Positions 5,487-20,540 of a stretch of 36,856 nucleotides of DNA are shown here, piece after piece. Source of the DNA: a virus. The position numbers were made by a program, and so were the translations under genes. Under the pieces are notes generated by a model. That model saw nothing but the letters and a program-made list of their open reading frames with translations. It was not told where the DNA came from and made no database searches. The stretch's first letter is position 1. Each line of letters starts with the position of its first letter. Location of the stretch: IMG/VR virus record IMGVR_UViG_3300025137_000112, positions 1 to 36,856 of that record; one strand, given 5' to 3'.

Positions 5487-5504
5487 TATTTGTCTATATA
5501 TTTA

Positions 5505-5533
5505 TATATATAGTCACCTATATACAATGTCAA
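5505..5533 (-). promoter_or_regulatory. Sigma70-type promoter for the terminase/portal operon
   Basis: On the minus strand TTGACA (5528-5533), 17 bases, TATATA (5505-5510). The predicted transcript starts about 12 bases before the terL ATG. The -35 box begins TTGACATT, as in promoters at 8817, 10918 and 15081. The palindrome GGGGTACCCC (5540-5549) lies just upstream and could be an operator. Confidence 0.6.
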
Positions 5534-5661
5534 ATTTAGGGGGTACCCCTTACATTGTTCAAGTTATATAGTATTCTTCGAATTCCTTAGTATCTCTTCA
5601 ATTTTTTGGCAGTCGGCACAGGCGTAATAAAATATGACCACCGATCATGGCAGAAAAGCGG

Positions 5662-5679
5662 GGCGGATTTTTGGCGGAT
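5662..5679 (+). repeat. Short GGCGGAT tandem repeat
   Basis: GGCGGAT occurs at 5662-5668 and again at 5673-5679 with an 11-base period, about one helical turn. The reverse-complement core CCGCC appears twice near 5883-5893. It could be a pair of protein-binding sites. Short and unproven. Confidence 0.4.
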
Positions 5680-5904
5680 GTTTTAGTAATAAATTATTAT
5701 TCATTGTTTCATGTTCCCAAAGATAATTTTTTATAAATTAATGGAATAAATTTATTTTTAATTCGTCTATGTATTTATGATCACTTACTTAATTTTAAAT
5801 ATATTAGTTTTAATTATTGTTTTTGGTTTTTGTTATATTAAAGCGAATTAATATATATAAAATCCCATTGATTAATCATACACCGCCCACCGCCAAAGGC
5901 TCTA

Positions 5905-5930
5905 TATGGCTCTTAAAACAAGAATAAATA
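5905..5930 (+). repeat. 26-base direct repeat, left copy
   Basis: TATGGCTCTTAAAACA followed by AGAATAAATA. It matches 24 of 26 bases with 8394-8419 in the same orientation. Together the copies flank the amidoligase and amidotransferase genes. Confidence 0.75.
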
Positions 5931-6059
5931 TTCATTTTAATTTAATATCTTGATGAGGGGGCAAGGCTAGTTCAAAAGATTAATGAATAATAAAGAAATA
6001 TAGAATTATCAAGGCTATTTATATTAATCATTTAATACTAATTAATTTATATATGTTTA

Positions 6060-6087
6060 TTGATTTATATGGGTTTTTTTATATATT
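6060..6087 (+). promoter_or_regulatory. Likely promoter of the amidoligase operon
   Basis: TTGATT (6060-6065), 16 bases, TATATT (6082-6087). The spacing and -10 are identical to the promoters at 8817 and 10918; the -35 is weaker. The expected start is near 6094, giving a leader of about 35 bases with AGAAAGG before the ATG at 6129. Confidence 0.5.
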
Positions 6088-6128
6088 CTAAATAGAAATA
6101 AAGAATATTCAGAAAGGTTAAAACAATT

Positions 6129-7478
6129 ATGAATATAAATATTAAACACGTTATTAATATAATTAATAATGATCAAATAGCTGAGAGCGAAAAAGAAAAA
6201 TACGTTTATTATTTTTTTGAAGAACGTTCAAAGGCTATACAAGGAAGACCACAAGAAAATTTTGTATTACTAAAAAGAAAATTAAAATTCTTAGTTGATA
6301 CAATTAATAACAGGCTAACAGATGATTATAAAGACTGCGTTTTTTATTGTCATTATGAAGACGAAGTCAAATTTGATACTAATTGCGAGTTATTTTATAA
6401 TGATCGTGAAGAAACCATTTCTGAGTGGGCATATAATGACTACTATGTTTGTTGCTGTAGCTGTGGTGAAAATTATCACGTTGATAACACAGATTATATA
6501 AATCATGGTCATTGGTGCAGTTCCTGTCGTGATGATGAATTTTTCTGGTGCGATAATTGTGATGAGTATATCAGCAATTCTGAAAGTTGTGATTGTGATA
6601 ATGAGGGAGATGAAGAAAATAATTTATATGCTTATAATTATAGAATACCTTTATTAAATCTTGGCAATTCTGATTTGAGATATGGCATTGAGTTAGAAAT
6701 GGAAGTTAGGGAAGACTATTATCGATCTGATACAGTGGAAGAAATTAGATCAGTCATGAATAAAAATGTTTATTCTGTACAGTGTAAAAGAGATGGCTCT
6801 TTATGTGAATATAATGGCTTTGAATTGGTTTCAACCAATGCTGATTTTTACTATCATAAAAATAAATTTTGGAACGATTTTTTTAAATTAAATTTAAATG
6901 AATCTTGCAAGGGCTATCATGGTAAAGACTGCGGATATCATATTCATATGAGTAGAAACGCATTTGATGAGAGTCAGATGCAAAGATTAAATTGTTTTTA
7001 TAATGATAAAAAAAATAGAAACTTTTTAATAGATATATCCGGAAGAAATCAAAGTAGTTATGCTAAATTTAAGGATGATATAGATTTAAATAGCCCTGTC
7101 TTTACTGACGGAGATGATTATAAATATCGTGCAATTAACTTCAATAATACTAGTACGATTGAAGTTAGAATATTTAGATCAAATCTCAAAAAGATTTCAT
7201 TTTTTAGAAATCTTGAATTGGTGCATAGCATAAATGATTTTATTCAAAATGATAAATCTACAAATTCAATTTATTATACTGAATATTTTGATTTTCTTTT
7301 AAATAATCCGAATAAAGATTATGTAAATCTTTTATTATGGTTAGATGATAAAGACTATTTTAGCCACCTTGAACACGTTGAAGACTTTAAAACTAGATAC
7401 AATGATTTTAAAAACATTGTAGAAGATTTTAGAACTAACAACCAAGAATTAATAAACTTAGAAAGTGAGGACAACTAA
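6129..7478 (+). CDS. Amidoligase-family enzyme with Zn-ribbon-like N-terminal region
   Basis: 449 residues. The helical N-terminus (1-100) is followed by a Cys-rich segment with paired cysteines (C109/C112, C130/C133, C141/C144, C154/C156), which looks like zinc ribbons or a treble clef. The C-terminal half fits the glutamine-synthetase-fold Amidoligase_2 family: YGIELEME (185-192), RDGS (221-224), ELVS (232-235), CGYHIHMS (268-275) and TIEVRIFR (343-350). These are the family's metal/ATP and substrate signature positions, so it is probably active, forming an ATP-dependent amide bond between a carboxylate and an amine. The substrate is unknown. A class II amidotransferase starts 3 bases after its stop; a cyclotransferase-like gene lies at 15071. 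Base composition is more AT-rich than that of the terminase genes. Confidence 0.85.
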   Translation: MNINIKHVINIINNDQIAESEKEKYVYYFFEERSKAIQGRPQENFVLLKRKLKFLVDTINNRLTDDYKDCVFYCHYEDEVKFDTNCELFYNDREETISEWAYNDYYVCCCSCGENYHVDNTDYINHGHWCSSCRDDEFFWCDNCDEYISNSESCDCDNEGDEENNLYAYNYRIPLLNLGNSDLRYGIELEMEVREDYYRSDTVEEIRSVMNKNVYSVQCKRDGSLCEYNGFELVSTNADFYYHKNKFWNDFFKLNLNESCKGYHGKDCGYHIHMSRNAFDESQMQRLNCFYNDKKNRNFLIDISGRNQSSYAKFKDDIDLNSPVFTDGDDYKYRAINFNNTSTIEVRIFRSNLKKISFFRNLELVHSINDFIQNDKSTNSIYYTEYFDFLLNNPNKDYVNLLLWLDDKDYFSHLEHVEDFKTRYNDFKNIVEDFRTNNQELINLESEDN

Positions 7479-7480
7479 AA

Positions 7481-8293
7481 ATGTGTTTAATTATTTTAGC
7501 TAATGATTTGAAGTCATTAGATTATAAGGATCTTGAAACCGCCTATAACAGGAATTCACAGGGTTTTGGGGTTATGTATATGAACAAAGAAAATAAATTT
7601 ATTACAGATAAATTTTTACCTAAAAATTTTAATGAGGTAAAAAACTTTTTTAATGTTCATAAGAGCCAAACAGATAAAATGGCTATTCATTTTAGGTTTA
7701 CTACTGAGGGAGCGACCAATAAAAAAAATTGTCACCCTTTTATTAGTTATCAAGATGATAAAAGAAAAATAGGATTTATGCACAATGGGGCACGTTTACC
7801 TATTCCATTAATTCATAAAAAATGTTCAGATACTTGGCATTTCAATCAATACTATTTGAAACCGCTTTTATCTGAAAATTCAAATATAATTTTAAATAAA
7901 GATTATCAAACAGAATTAGAGAATCATATTGATGATGACAAACTTTTATTTTTAGATAGTCAGACTTCAAAATTTATTATTATAAATGAAACTAGCGGGA
8001 ATTATAAGGGTGCGAATTGGTTTTCAAATGATTATTGGAATATCTCACTAGCCCCTAAATTATCTTATAGATTAGATAATGATTATTTATCAAATTATGA
8101 TGATAATGATTTTTATTCTAGCGGGCATTTGGTAGAGAGATCAATGACACCTCAATTAGATTTTTTATCCGACCATGAAATATTGAAAATGGGTAAAAAT
8201 GAATTATATGATTTTGTTGATGATTGTTATTACTCAGAAGATATGAGCCCTATATATAATTTAGTAGATAGGTATAAAAGAAACGTTAAATAA
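7481..8293 (+). CDS. Class II (Ntn) glutamine amidotransferase-like protein
   Basis: 270 residues starting MCLI: after Met removal Cys2 would be the N-terminal nucleophile, as in GATase II enzymes. Further family motifs are QGFGVMY (27-33), HFRFTTEG (70-77), NCHPF (83-87) and FMHNG (99-103). Such domains hydrolyse glutamine to glutamate and ammonia, or cleave related amides. There is no synthetase domain on the same chain; the partner is probably the amidoligase 3 bases upstream. Residues after about 170 are Asp/Tyr/Asn-rich and unassigned. It could supply ammonia or remove a gamma-glutamyl group; I cannot tell which. Confidence 0.85.
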   Translation: MCLIILANDLKSLDYKDLETAYNRNSQGFGVMYMNKENKFITDKFLPKNFNEVKNFFNVHKSQTDKMAIHFRFTTEGATNKKNCHPFISYQDDKRKIGFMHNGARLPIPLIHKKCSDTWHFNQYYLKPLLSENSNIILNKDYQTELENHIDDDKLLFLDSQTSKFIIINETSGNYKGANWFSNDYWNISLAPKLSYRLDNDYLSNYDDNDFYSSGHLVERSMTPQLDFLSDHEILKMGKNELYDFVDDCYYSEDMSPIYNLVDRYKRNVK

Positions 8294-8303
8294 TTAAAAT
8301 TAT

Positions 8304-8329
8304 TCAATAGCCCTTTAAAAGGCTATTGA
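8304..8329 (+). terminator. Hairpin after the amidotransferase gene, possible terminator
   Basis: TCAATAGCC (8304-8312), loop CTTTAAAA, GGCTATTGA (8321-8329): a perfect 9-bp stem 11 bases after the stop codon. The downstream sequence ACTACTTTTAAA has only a short T run, so it may be a weak terminator or an mRNA-stabilising hairpin. Confidence 0.55.
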
Positions 8330-8393
8330 CTACTTTTAAAACTGGGTTAAATCCCATAATAAGATCATACAGGGAAGATTTTAAATAGCCTTG

Positions 8394-8419
8394 TATGGCT
8401 CTTAAAACAGGAAAAAATA
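8394..8419 (+). repeat. 26-base direct repeat, right copy
   Basis: TATGGCTCTTAAAACA followed by GGAAAAAATA, 24/26 identical to 5905-5930. Directly before it, TAAATAGCCTTG (8382-8393) is the exact reverse complement of CAAGGCTATTTA at 6010-6021. Confidence 0.75.
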
Positions 8420-8447
8420 AAGGTAGTAGAAAGCGAAAAATAGAAAA

Positions 8448-8660
8448 ATGACTATTAAACAATTAGATTTATTTATTACTAAATATTCTTTTAAGCATTT
8501 AAAAGATGATACAGTTGATTACGATCCTATCAATAAATCTTGGCATAGGTGGGTAAGCAATAAGGCTAAACATTTCACAAGAGAAAGTTTATTAGAAGAT
8601 CAAAAGCATCAATCAATAAATCCGCTTTATTGGTTAGAGCTAAATCAAGGCAATCAATAA
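8448..8660 (+). CDS. Small hypothetical protein
   Basis: 70 residues, beginning MTIKQLDLFITKYSF, with a Trp-containing centre (KSWHRWVSNK) and a C-terminal LYWLELNQGNQ. No strong Shine-Dalgarno is visible (AAAATAGAAAA before the ATG). It starts 29 bases after the right copy of the 26-base repeat, so it lies just outside the amidoligase cassette. Function not recognised. Confidence 0.6.
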   Translation: MTIKQLDLFITKYSFKHLKDDTVDYDPINKSWHRWVSNKAKHFTRESLLEDQKHQSINPLYWLELNQGNQ

Positions 8661-8764
8661 TAAATTATTACTACTAGGATCAGAGAGCTGGATTCTGGAT
8701 TCGTAATTTTTTATTACTTTTTAAAATTTTTTCTGAAAAATTAAATTAAATTAATTGAGGTCGG

Positions 8765-8800
8765 GCACAAGCACAAGCACAGGGACAGGGACAAGAATAA
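8765..8800 (+). repeat. Hexanucleotide repeat tract (GCACAA-type)
   Basis: Successive hexamers GCACAA, GCACAA, GCACAG, GGACAG, GGACAA and GAATAA follow GGTCGG. The tract lies between genes, 17 bases before a promoter. Related hexamer runs occur at 9298-9339 and, shorter, near 9402 and 9518. Confidence 0.7.
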
Positions 8801-8816
8801 AAGTTTATTTAAAGGG

Positions 8817-8844
8817 TTGACATTAACCTATAAAATCCTATATT
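8817..8844 (+). promoter_or_regulatory. Strong sigma70-type promoter
   Basis: Consensus TTGACA (8817-8822), 16 bases, TATATT (8839-8844), about 35 bases before the ATG at 8879. It shares TTGACATT...CCTATATT with the promoter at 10918, so both are probably read together by the same polymerase. Confidence 0.75.
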
Positions 8845-8878
8845 GAAAATATAATAATAGAATATTAAGAGGTAAACA

Positions 8879-9115
8879 ATGAAAACTAAATACAAAATAA
8901 AAGCTGAGCATTTTCTTGGAGCAACTTCTGAACTTGCTGATCATATAATGCAATTGCAACTAGAAGAAACATACGAAGATTATATTGAATATGAAAATGA
9001 AGAAAAAACTAGCTCTCATTTTACTGATGAAGGACAAGAAATATTTAATGAAACTTTATCAGATGTAGAGCATATTTTATATAGATATGGAATTATACAT
9101 GAGGAAGCAGAATGA
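8879..9115 (+). CDS. Small acidic hypothetical protein
   Basis: 78 residues, rich in Glu, probably all helical (HFLGATSELADHIMQLQLEE). AAGAGG lies about 6 bases before the ATG, and a consensus promoter ends 35 bases upstream, so expression is likely and perhaps early. An ATGA overlap couples it to the next gene. No family recognised; small acidic early phage proteins are often host-takeover or DNA-mimic factors, but nothing here proves that. Confidence 0.7.
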   Translation: MKTKYKIKAEHFLGATSELADHIMQLQLEETYEDYIEYENEEKTSSHFTDEGQEIFNETLSDVEHILYRYGIIHEEAE

Positions 9116-12029: not shown

Positions 12030-12279
12030 AGGTCTAGGAATAGATAGTAAAAATTTAGCAGAAGCATTAAAAATATGGTCATCAATTAGAGAGCACGCTA
12101 GGGAAATGACCACCATTAGTGATAATTGGGCGAGAATACACCGTAGTCTTCCACATGATGTTGCCCCTGTTCAACGAGAAGTAGAACTAAAAGAATTTTA
12201 TCATCATGCAGGCATGACTATAGGAAATCTTTCAACAGAAATATTAGAAAAAATATTAGAGGAAATAGCAGATGTATAA
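11998..12279 (+). CDS. Small hypothetical protein
   Basis: 93 residues, mostly helical (LAEALKIWSSIREHAREM, VELKEFYHHAGMTIG). GGGAG lies 7 bases before the ATG, which supports this start despite the 32-base overlap with the upstream gene. It overlaps the methyltransferase start by 8 bases. Function not recognised. Confidence 0.68.
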   Translation: MIIPDIRPTAKGLGIDSKNLAEALKIWSSIREHAREMTTISDNWARIHRSLPHDVAPVQREVELKEFYHHAGMTIGNLSTEILEKILEEIADV

Positions 12280-12910
12280 ATATTTAGATATTCCTGGTTG
12301 GTTTAATATGCACGACGCATTGATGAACCTAGTCAAATACTGTGAAGATGGTGATGACATAGTAGAAATAGGGTGTTTCGCAGGACGATCAACAAGGTTT
12401 CTCTGTGACTCACTAGAACTGAGCGGAAAGCCTAAAGTCACAGTTCACGTCATAGATACCTTTGAAGGATCGGGCCAAGAACATTTAGATGTCAATTTAA
12501 ACAGCATGTATGACGATTTTATGAGGAATTTAGAAGACCATTTAGAATGTGGGAGAGTTCAATTAAACGTCAACAAGTCTGATAATCAAAATATCCTTGA
12601 TTCTTTTGAAGAAAAGTCAGTTTTTGGGGTAATTGTCGACGGAGCACATACCTATGACGCAGTCAAAGAGGATGTGATTAATTGGTGGCCAAAGGTAAAG
12701 GAAGGTGGAATCATGGTTGGTGATGATGTATCTTTAGAGTCTGTAAAGCAAGCTGCTTTGGATGGATTTGCGTACCATGGAATTGACACATACAATATTT
12801 GTAAGGGAGTTGAGGGATGGTTCTCTCAGATAAAGAACGACAAAAACAAACAGATAGCCAACAGCCTGAAGTTAATCCCCGGGAAAAACTCTATGAAGTT
12901 AAATGGCTAG
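12272..12910 (+). CDS. Class I SAM-dependent methyltransferase (Methyltransf_24/TylF-like)
   Basis: 212 residues. Motif I is IVEIGCFAGRSTRFLCDSL (about 30-48), with an acidic residue after the second strand (VIDTFEGS, D62) and the post-motif GVIVDGAHTYDAVKEDV (about 119-135). The DGxHxYxxVxxD pattern is typical of macrocin-O-methyltransferase-like enzymes that act on sugars or small molecules, often with a metal. GGIMVGDD follows. The substrate is unknown; it could modify a host or virion glycan. AGAGGAAA precedes the ATG. Confidence 0.82.
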   Translation: MYKYLDIPGWFNMHDALMNLVKYCEDGDDIVEIGCFAGRSTRFLCDSLELSGKPKVTVHVIDTFEGSGQEHLDVNLNSMYDDFMRNLEDHLECGRVQLNVNKSDNQNILDSFEEKSVFGVIVDGAHTYDAVKEDVINWWPKVKEGGIMVGDDVSLESVKQAALDGFAYHGIDTYNICKGVEGWFSQIKNDKNKQIANSLKLIPGKNSMKLNG

Positions 12911-15051: not shown

Positions 15052-15081
15052 ATTATATAATAACTCCTACTTAAATGTCAA
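15052..15081 (-). promoter_or_regulatory. Sigma70-type promoter for the ParB-like gene
   Basis: Minus strand TTGACA (15076-15081) with TATAAT (15052-15057, 18-base spacer) or TATATA (15054-15059, 16-base spacer). The -35 lies in the last codons of the cyclotransferase-like gene. It starts TTGACATT like the other phage promoters. Confidence 0.65.
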
Positions 15082-15541
15082 GCCTTGTTGCAGAATAATT
15101 AACTGCTTCTTCCAAAGGTTGAGTAGGCAAATCGCAATCAATGTAGCCTCTGACGATAGTTTCCAAGTAAGATTCTGAAGGAGGATAAACTATATTCTTA
15201 TCCACCATGGAGTAGAACATAATTCTTTGAGGCACAAACCTATCAAGTTTATCGCTCCAATTATTATAATATTTTTTTATATACAGATTTGGGTAGCCCT
15301 CATACCTATCAAGAGATCTTTCACACTCCTCTGTTATTGTAAATAATGCACCTAATACTGACTTATCTTTGGACTGTTGCACATCTGCAACACTTCTAAA
15401 AACTAGTTCATACTCTGGTAATTCAAAAGTATCTACATACTCTGATTTGGGGCACCTAATTTTCATATGCTGATGATTCATGTTTGAACCATAAGCAAAG
15501 TAATACTTTATTTCTTTTTCTTTTTGCTTTCTATTAGCCAT
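15071..15541 (-). CDS. Gamma-glutamylcyclotransferase-like (GGCT/AIG2) protein
   Basis: 156 residues. FAYGSNMN (15-22) is the substrate loop of the GGCT fold. VLGALFTIT (62-70) and LDRYEGYPNLY (77-87) follow, with E81 as the catalytic glutamate. Such enzymes release 5-oxoproline from gamma-glutamyl amines or amides. In published analyses of amidoligase systems, GGCT-like and class II amidotransferase proteins accompany amidoligases, so this gene may work with 6129-8293 although it is 7 kb away and on the other strand. It overlaps the SNF2-like gene by 34 bases. Confidence 0.83.
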   Translation of the reverse strand: MANRKQKEKEIKYYFAYGSNMNHQHMKIRCPKSEYVDTFELPEYELVFRSVADVQQSKDKSVLGALFTITEECERSLDRYEGYPNLYIKKYYNNWSDKLDRFVPQRIMFYSMVDKNIVYPPSESYLETIVRGYIDCDLPTQPLEEAVNYSATRLDI

Positions 15542-18192: not shown

Positions 18193-18981
18193 ATGACAAA
18201 CGCAAAAACTAACGGCTCTGTAGCCGTAAAGGCAGAAACCTTACCTTCAGTCAAGATGGAAAATCTTGAGAAGTTTGCAGGTACAGGATTAGATACCATT
18301 ACGACAGATGATATCGCAACTCCAAGACTTAAAGTTTTGGCAGCACTATCTCCTGAGATAGAAGAAATTGAAGGCGCAAAAGCTGGAATGATCTTAAACT
18401 CAGTGAGCAAGAAAGCATACTCAGGACAAGACGGAATCAAAGTCGTTGTCTGTGGGTATGACAAAGTATGGTTGGAATGGACAGACAGAGGAAAAGGTTC
18501 TTCTGCTCCTGTCAATATCTTTTCACCAAAAGATAAACCAACTAATGCGGTGCGTGGAGATGACGGAAAGTTCCGTCTTGAGAACGGAAACTATTTAGAA
18601 GAATGTGCAAACTTTTATGTGCTTCTTTTAAATGGCGGAGTAGCTCCCGAGCCTGCGATCATATCAATGAAAGCAACACAACTAAAGGCCGCTCGTAGTT
18701 GGGCGTATAGCTTAAAGAATGAGTTTATTCAGAATCCTACAAGTAAAAAACTTTTCTTAGCTCCTAGTTGGTATCGTGTTTATAACTTAACTACTACCAA
18801 GCAACAAAACGATAAAGGTTCTTGGTATGGGTGGGTTGTTAATAAGGACGAATTCCTTAACCACGAAGGTACTTTTGATATGGCGGCTAACTTCAACGAA
18901 TCAGTCAGAGGCGGTAAAGTGACACCGAAGTATGACGATGAAGCTGATAGTTCAAGTTCAGGTCAAGACACTCCGTTTTAA
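18193..18981 (+). CDS. Probable ssDNA-binding protein with acidic SSB-like tail
   Basis: 262 residues. The central part (about 35-225) is beta-rich with aromatic and basic residues (GIKVVVCGYDKVWLEWTDRG, ARSWAYSLKNEF). The end reads YDDEADSSSSGQDTPF: an acidic, Ser-rich tail with a terminal Pro-Phe, as in bacterial SSB (DDDIPF) and analogous to the acidic tail of T7 gp2.5. That tip docks replication partners. The gene directly precedes the primase (TAATG overlap), the expected place. The OB fold is not provable by eye. Confidence 0.65.
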   Translation: MTNAKTNGSVAVKAETLPSVKMENLEKFAGTGLDTITTDDIATPRLKVLAALSPEIEEIEGAKAGMILNSVSKKAYSGQDGIKVVVCGYDKVWLEWTDRGKGSSAPVNIFSPKDKPTNAVRGDDGKFRLENGNYLEECANFYVLLLNGGVAPEPAIISMKATQLKAARSWAYSLKNEFIQNPTSKKLFLAPSWYRVYNLTTTKQQNDKGSWYGWVVNKDEFLNHEGTFDMAANFNESVRGGKVTPKYDDEADSSSSGQDTPF

Positions 18982-20540
18982 TGAACGATAGGGTCTCTAA
19001 ATTTAGAGAGATCTTTCTAGGGTTGGAGCGTGCATATGGTACGTTCCAACCTAAAGAAAGTCTCAGAGAAGATAATAAAGCAGAAGGCGAAACTTGGATT
19101 CGCAAGAAACCTTTAGAAGATTCTTTATGGGAAGATCACTTATCTGGTGCGTGGCCTAGCCTTGGCATTTTTCCTATTAATGATGAGGATAAATGTCGTT
19201 GGGGATGTATAGATGTGGATGAATATCCACTTGATCATGTATCAATTGCAAAAAAATTATCAGAAAAAAAATTACCTTTTATTGTTTCTAAATCTAAGAG
19301 TGGCGGTGCTCACATATTTTTGTTTTTTAAAGAATATGTTCCCGCAGGTTTAGTTCATAATAAAATAAAAGAGTTAGCGGCTTTCATGGGTCTAGGACAT
19401 TGTGAAGTATTTCCAAAACAAGAAAGACTAATGAGAGAAGGCAACCCTAAAGATTGGGAAGTAGGTAGCTTTCTTAATATGCCATATCACAATGGCTTAG
19501 AACATACAGACAGATACGCTTTTAGTGATGAGGGAAACACTTTGAGTTTAGAAGAGTTTATAAAAGAAGTTGATCAGAAATCTATTACCCTTGAAGAGTT
19601 AAAAAAATTATCTTTGAAAAAAGAAAATTCAGAATTCTCTGATGCGCCTTACTGTATCGAAGCTTACTTAACAGAAAACAAAACAGTTCAACCAGGAAGT
19701 AGAGATAACTTTCTTTTTCAGTATGCAGTTTTTGCTAAGAAAAAGTATGGCGAAACATACGAAGAAGAAGTTCATAAATTTCATCACAAGTATTTTGAAG
19801 ATCCACTTAGACCAAAAGAAATAGAAAAAATTATTAAGCAAGCAGAGAAAAAAGATTGGGGGTACAAATGTAAAGATCAACCCATGTGTTCTTTTTGTAA
19901 TAAAACCAAGTGTCGTGTTAGAAAATATGGTGTGGGGGATAGTAATGTTGTAAGCGATGTTGGAAACGTTATTCAATATGGAGACAATGAAGATACCATT
20001 TATCATGTCACTATTAATCAAGAGCAAACAATTGTTTGCGGTGTAGAAGAATTATACGACCAACATAAGTTTAGAAAAAAATGTTTAGTTAAATTAGGGT
20101 CTATGCCTTCCATGATGAAGAGAGAAGATTGGGACTACTACATCACAGATATAGTTTCAAAAGCAATCAAGGTTAGATCAGAGTTTGAAATGACACCTGA
20201 GGGTGAGTTTAGAAATGTACTAACGAGGTATATATCTAATCAAGCTAATGCTATGGACATTGATGATATTCTTAATGGTCAATGTTTCGTGGAAGATGAG
20301 GAAAGCAAAGTGTATTTTCGTATGGATCAGCTTCAAGAGTATATGCGCAATCGAAGATATATAGCTTTAAGCTCTAATCAAATGGGTATCTTTTTGAGAA
20401 ACTTAGGTGGCGATTGCTCTAAAAGAAAACTAAATGGTAAATCGGCACAGCTTGTGTGGTGGGTGCCTAGTGAAAAGTTTGCTAGTAAAAAAGTTGTAGA
20501 AGTTCAAGAAGAAAAAGTCGAGGAGGCAATACCATTTTAA
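18981..20540 (+). CDS. Archaeo-eukaryotic-type primase (AEP/TOTE-like) with Zn cluster
   Basis: 519 residues. RWGCIDVDEYPLD (74-86) gives the DxD metal motif (D78, D80), KSGGAHIFLFF (106-116) the sGxH motif (H111), then EVFPKQ (142-147) and SFLNMPYHNG (163-172). This is the catalytic core of AEP primases of the kind also found in TOTE elements. After a PriCT-like helical part come C297, C303, C306 and C311, a probable Zn site. The C-terminal 200 residues are unassigned, and the end is EEKVEEAIPF, an SSB-like tip. It makes primers for the family A polymerase encoded downstream. Confidence 0.82.
   Translation: MNDRVSKFREIFLGLERAYGTFQPKESLREDNKAEGETWIRKKPLEDSLWEDHLSGAWPSLGIFPINDEDKCRWGCIDVDEYPLDHVSIAKKLSEKKLPFIVSKSKSGGAHIFLFFKEYVPAGLVHNKIKELAAFMGLGHCEVFPKQERLMREGNPKDWEVGSFLNMPYHNGLEHTDRYAFSDEGNTLSLEEFIKEVDQKSITLEELKKLSLKKENSEFSDAPYCIEAYLTENKTVQPGSRDNFLFQYAVFAKKKYGETYEEEVHKFHHKYFEDPLRPKEIEKIIKQAEKKDWGYKCKDQPMCSFCNKTKCRVRKYGVGDSNVVSDVGNVIQYGDNEDTIYHVTINQEQTIVCGVEELYDQHKFRKKCLVKLGSMPSMMKREDWDYYITDIVSKAIKVRSEFEMTPEGEFRNVLTRYISNQANAMDIDDILNGQCFVEDEESKVYFRMDQLQEYMRNRRYIALSSNQMGIFLRNLGGDCSKRKLNGKSAQLVWWVPSEKFASKKVVEVQEEKVEEAIPF
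20521..20536 (+). promoter_or_regulatory. Shine-Dalgarno AGGAGG and candidate ATT start of the helicase
   Basis: AGGAGG (20521-20526), spacer CAATACC (7 bases), ATT (20534-20536) in frame with the helicase Walker A. No in-frame ATG, GTG or TTG exists between the upstream stop (20486) and the TTG at 20591. The ATG at 20544 is out of frame and 17 bases from the Shine-Dalgarno. Confidence 0.55.

Follow-up and report, generated by a model that had tools for sequence, protein, structure and literature searches.

Virus record IMGVR_UViG_3300025137_000112 (IMG/VR), a single record analyzed over its whole 36,856 bp (hereafter, the window), carries near terL an amidoligase gene (AmL) and a class II glutamine amidotransferase gene (GAT), which lie between two copies of a 26-bp direct repeat. 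A sequence-only reading had taken the repeats for the footprint of a cassette, or moron, gained or lost by recombination. This raises the question of whether the repeats are cassette ends or have another role beside these genes, and what the two enzymes might make. The features that bear on it are listed here.

5859..5930, + strand: element copy 1, upstream of AmL and between the divergent terL and AmL, with the 26-mer at 5905-5930; aligned with the copies of relatives
6060..6087, + strand: promoter-like site near AmL, TTGATT-16-TATATT, a consensus match only
6129..7478, + strand: AmL, 449 aa, a Cys-rich N-terminal region and a predicted glutamine-synthetase-like ligase domain
7481..8293, + strand: class II glutamine amidotransferase GAT, 270 aa, PF13230 (E 1.6e-5)
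8304..8329, + strand: terminator-like hairpin 3' of GAT (TCAATAGCC...GGCTATTGA), usable on both strands
8348..8419, + strand: element copy 2, just upstream of ORF 8448, with the 26-mer at 8394-8419
8448..8660, + strand: gene behind copy 2, encoding a small protein with an N-terminal QLDLF motif
15071..15541, - strand: gamma-glutamyl cyclotransferase-like gene GGCT, GGACT/AIG2-like (PF06094, E 2.5e-9; phrog_2520, E 4e-25)

Both enzyme families proposed earlier were upheld. The window AmL gave no match to Pfam, including Amidoligase_2 (PF12224), and 9 of 25 aligned AmL homologues matched that family (best 5.9e-7). An AlphaFold2 model of AmL (pLDDT 83) had its best PDB match among YbdK-type proteins (Z 11.8, 217 residues, 3.9 Å), followed by glutamine synthetases, GmaS, and Dop, and also matched phage amidoligases in a viral structure library. 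AmL is accordingly modeled with a YbdK/glutamine-synthetase fold: residues 181-449 share the predicted fold of YbdK-type carboxylate-amine ligases (Z 11.8 to 1tt4, 11.6 to 1r8g), although identity to these is just 14-15% and the Cys-rich N-terminal region falls outside the aligned range. Six cysteines ahead of the ligase domain (C109, C112, C130, C133, C141, and C154) are invariant in 21 marine sequences, and this region may bind zinc. The motifs GxExE, DGS, GxHxH, and NxxTxExRxF, a list taken from the alignment rather than from the family's original description, are invariant in all 25 AmL sequences, including the Marvin and MEP401 homologues. For GAT, the score against PF13230 was 24.4 bits (cut-off 23), the family was matched by 21/21 GAT homologues, and PDB profile searches returned PurF/GlmS. 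Its N-terminal nucleophile C2, together with R72, N102, G103, and D117, is invariant among homologues, so the catalytic signatures of both enzymes are intact, as had been supposed. Purifying selection acts on both genes (omega 0.09-0.30 for AmL, 0.02-0.18 for GAT).

The two genes are separated by 2 bp in the window, in agreement with the first description. With few exceptions, loci that show both genes have GAT immediately behind AmL, distant phages included, and the gap is mostly between -10 and +5. The two genes probably make up a single operon of a kind known from phages. In the putative reaction, GAT would take the amide nitrogen from glutamine, and AmL would activate a carboxylate, probably gamma-glutamyl, with ATP to yield an amide. 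Mean pairwise identity over 120 pairs was 53% for AmL, 65% for GAT, 75% for ORF 9293, and 91% for terL. Divergence of AmL and GAT far faster than that of neighboring genes, with omega still low, was seen in L030, L034, L042-L044, L072, and other AmL loci, and this fast divergence of alleles hints at an evolving target. Only one relative was found in a collection of bacterial and archaeal genomes, on a 3,578-bp contig (L253) of a Bacteroidota MAG, where AmL is 45% identical and is followed by GAT. This short contig groups with phage L232 and is thus probably viral.

A gamma-glutamyl-type chemistry, as suggested at the outset, gained support from a third gene. GGCT lies 7 kb from the AmL-GAT pair, was present in 7/7 records with AmL (G021, G027, G004, G050, G002, G003, and G048), and was absent from 3/3 records without it (those of L029, L038, and L327). 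The comparison covers 10 related records with both sites in view, G001 and G051 being left out because their SNF2-like neighbor was not found. A perfect 10/10 split has a chance of 1 in 120 if records are independent, a figure that is optimistic for related records. Nonetheless, the co-occurrence supports a single gamma-glutamyl pathway, in which GGCT would cleave gamma-glutamyl amides.

Sets of amidoligase, GATase, and GGCT in phages are mentioned in PMC5498523, citing Iyer et al. and Hardies et al., as predicted peptidoglycan-modification cassettes, and are named there for PSA-HP1, phiEco32, LUZ24, tf, PaP3, and CW02. The published guess is that such sets modify cell-wall peptides against superinfection. 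Like the phiEco32/PSA-HP1-type cassette, the genome studied here holds an amidoligase, a class II GATase, and GGCT in one small phage genome. It differs in that GGCT stands apart rather than in the same block, in that the pair adjoins terL with an added pair of elements, and in that no Pfam match to an ATP-grasp enzyme or a second amidoligase family was found among the window proteins scanned, in a record that may be incomplete. The amidoligase-GATase pair is also known from the OM43 phages MEP401/MEP402 (PMC10580990). In these and in Mycobacterium phage Marvin (gp105-gp106), homologous genes are adjacent in the same order, with identities to MEP401/402 of 27-29% for AmL and about 30-34% for GAT. 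In the marine family, the Cys-rich N-terminal region extends further than in MEP401/402 and Marvin, and internal identity is about 40-60%. None of these phages was among the GGCT matches listed.

The repeat is real, and its coordinates, shared orientation, and 24/26 identity were reproduced. No further copy with up to three mismatches occurs elsewhere in the window, and 100 dinucleotide-preserving shuffles gave a mean of 0.00, placing it far beyond chance. A second block common to both copies, ATCATACA, lies 30 bases upstream of the 26-mer; since the spacing is identical in both, the repeated unit is about 70 bp. Alignment of relatives likewise showed the 26-mer to be the 3' half of an approximately 70-bp element with the consensus TGATnnATCAYAC, about 22 variable bases, TRTAYGGCTCTTAAAAC, and then A-rich sequence. 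Copy 2 is predicted to fold at -15.3 kcal/mol (z -3.95), and no common RNA fold was predicted for the 44-nt form of the element. Searches of the window gave no credible match to Rfam families. A tRNA/att origin of the repeat was considered and rejected, as the window holds no tRNA and the collection of bacterial and archaeal genomes has no instance of the element pattern. A consensus scan picked 46 promoter-like sites in the region, where 33 +/- 6 are expected by chance; this is near chance level, and none was picked directly at copy 2. The region is AT-rich, as first described, with a GC of 0.264 between the repeats and 0.358 over the window. However, the AT-rich block extends to 5487-5904 before copy 1 (0.285) and to 8420-9115 after copy 2 (0.277), so the repeats do not bound it.

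The window was compared with twelve fetched loci that carry the element. In all eight element-bearing cases that include terL, AmL is divergent from it. Copy 1 precedes AmL by 254-266 bases, and copy 2 follows the AmL stop by about 858-886 bases. This spacing is kept even in L232, where AmL is only 44% identical. Across eight genomes and 68 aligned bases, copy 1 is 81% identical to other copy 1s and copy 2 is 86% identical to other copy 2s, while the two copies of one genome are 65% alike, a value no higher than that for unlike copies of different genomes. Hence, the alignments point to an old paralogous pair with no sign of exchange between its members. The phages concerned are small, of a terL/polA kind, and their relationship to pelagiphage HTVC027P is seen in a terL identity of 63%. 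The window also encodes a primase with an AEP-TOTE domain (PF22548) and PriCT_1 (18981-20540, +), beside genes related to cyanophage Pam3 gp32-gp34, and a Methyltransf_24/TylF-like methyltransferase (12272-12910, +) that is conserved in many relatives.

Junctions at copy 2 were compared in sixteen genome pairs. The four pairs that share the next gene (L177/L238, L238/L244, L208/L203, and L213/L221) cross copy 2 without a break. In all 11 pairs with a differing next gene, homology ends at +68 to +85 of copy 2 and, in most of them, resumes one small ORF further on. The window and L202 have the next gene in common and diverge at +110, inside that gene. The slot thus delimited holds nothing (window, L202, L213, and L221), a METEKRKKFVKFSN-type gene, an MQYNNYMGY gene, or an MKKYTYALEIE gene, and the fixed gene after it encodes the QLDLF peptide. 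Such gene-swap junctions coincide with copy 2 and not with copy 1, and several of them fall at ribosome-binding sites and start codons. Since single small genes come and go between copy 2 and the QLDLF gene, the element marks a slot outside the enzyme pair. Relatives of the QLDLF protein are 26-70 aa long and occur in L013, L015, L021, L023, L027, L038, L177, L202, L213, and others; the motif, rarely QLNLF, QLDLL, or QLDLI, is their most conserved feature. QL(S/D)LF is the highest-affinity consensus for binding to the bacterial beta sliding clamp (PMC11139829), and the small protein is possibly a phage clamp-binding protein, judged by its motif. The phage DNA polymerase has QMDLL at residue 6.

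We consider it probable that the AmL-GAT operon is of a known kind, that the repeats are the 3' halves of leader- or regulatory-like elements of about 70 bp rather than cassette ends, and that copy 2 marks a gene slot. Each element would precede a transcription unit on the plus strand: AmL-GAT in the case of copy 1, the QLDLF gene in that of copy 2. In the window, 28 nt separate the end of copy 2 from the ATG of ORF 8448; this copy also lies downstream of the terminator-like hairpin of GAT, and therefore occupies the place where the leader of ORF 8448 must be. A role as 5' leader or regulatory sequence is the most likely one for both copies.

The wider distribution of the element complicates this reading. 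IMG/VR was searched with the two-block pattern, a 15-mer scan of viral contigs having given many chance matches. Besides AmL-GAT loci, the search recovered a 45-nt form from other marine phages (L204, L205, L207, L210, L214, L217, L219, L224, L226, L236, and L239), a stem-loop that shares the outer sequences AATCAYAC and TAYGGCTCTTAAAA. The 16 records tested, of up to 57 kb, gave one strong match each, and most weaker matches are the same palindrome on the opposite strand. A covariance model of the 45-nt form scored the window copies at 32 bits (copy 2) and 24 bits (copy 1). No Rfam match at gathering score was obtained for ten loci with this form, the collection of bacterial and archaeal genomes gave no instance of its pattern, and searches of named phages for the element gave weak matches only (E 2-5), in unrelated phages. 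The 45-nt form lies within about 3-30 nt of the stop codons of convergent genes in L204, L205, L207, L210, L217, L236, and L239, where a leader makes no sense. This counts against the leader reading, as do the near-chance promoter scan and the lack of a common predicted fold for the 44-nt form. It also follows polA (the DNA polymerase gene) in L219 and L224 and lies between divergent units in L212/L228. At its 3' edge, from +55/+56, an insert of about 380 bp is present in L214 and L226 relative to L219; other pairs are continuous straight across the element.

Taken together with the slot at copy 2, this distribution leads us to suggest, tentatively, that the sequence is a previously undescribed element, with conserved AATCAYAC...TAYGGCTCTTAAAA around a variable stem-loop, found as a single copy in several uncultivated marine phage groups and as a pair in the AmL-GAT clade. 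It might be a regulatory signal whose 3' edge is a preferred join point for small genes, and so an independently arisen counterpart of the PeSLs of T4-like phages. As summarized in PMC5931544, citing Comeau, Arbiol, and Krisch (2014), PeSLs are composite promoter-terminator motifs that mediate modular shuffling. They resemble the present case, as far as that summary goes, in being a repeated noncoding element beside a stem-loop and before small swappable accessory genes, with the hairpin at 8304-8329 before copy 2 corresponding to the stem-loop terminator beside the motif. By the same account, they differ from it in phage group and sequence, as here the phages are small marine ones, the promoter is putative, and shuffling is seen at copy 2 only.

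In the AmL clade, we rank the leader reading first, and its main rival is that the element is a terminator or processing signal. Under this alternative, the element would chiefly terminate transcription or serve as a hairpin for RNA processing, the 45-nt form would end convergent operons, and the 44-nt copies of the AmL clade would be decayed or reused relics. Its position at convergent stop codons and after polA is as expected from such a role, as is the 11-bp stem, in which four inner pairs are changed on both sides (10 double-change cells versus 2.8 in shuffles). However, no T-run stands directly behind the stem, the outer sequences are conserved even where unpaired, the element sits between divergent genes in L212/L228 and at copy 1, and GAT already has a terminator-like hairpin of its own before copy 2. 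On balance, we regard this alternative as unlikely.

Recombination between the 26-bp repeats, by which the AmL-GAT pair would be gained or lost as a moron, fared much worse. The direct repeats do flank the pair on both sides, and the pair does vary in presence among relatives, as had been anticipated, being missing from some close ones (e.g., L009 beside L010 in the terL tree). However, no empty site with a single repeat copy was found among relatives. L009, the closest relative without AmL, is 97-99% identical to L010 through terL, but continuous homology between the two breaks off about 276 bp short of copy 1, at 58 bp upstream of the terL start codon, and homology of L009 to L177 does not resume until ~1.6 kb beyond copy 2. 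Right behind copy 1, homology returns as a 69% patch, but L009 has no intact copy. Moreover, most AmL-GAT loci lack the repeats altogether: 31 loci co-oriented with terL occupy the same place without them, and four AmL loci divergent from terL (L018, L026, L269, and L008) also lack them, so that relatives include divergent pairs with the element, divergent pairs without it, co-oriented pairs without it, and genomes without the pair. Alleles are also exchanged without the element (L034/L072, terL 99%, GAT 58%, and AmL 49%), partner copies are not homogenized, and the swapping that is tied to a repeat involves copy 2 only, on the outer side of the enzyme pair. Recombination between the repeats is therefore very improbable, and the repeats are not supported as cassette ends. 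Rather, the comparisons indicate that AmL-GAT occupies a variable region next to terL, diversifies fast there, and is no insert between repeats. Least probable of all is a role of the element in site-specific recombination, as an att- or attC-like site with genes inserted at its 3' edge. Join points do lie at that edge in the AmL clade and in L214/L226 versus L219, and the palindrome has a variable stem. However, the AmL-clade join points fit start-codon microhomology, the inserts showed no second site at their far end, and the scan of window proteins turned up no recombinase or integrase family. The pattern also has no occurrence in the bacterial and archaeal genome collection, and several pairs are continuous across the element.

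The story of a cassette scar is thus replaced by testable statements, namely that AmL-GAT and the distant GGCT belong to one pathway and that the repeats are control-like. The stem-loop element is the part worth following, as a stem-loop common to otherwise different marine phages may mark where small genes get added. If true, it would offer a handle on accessory-gene rearrangement in abundant, mostly uncultivated marine viruses.
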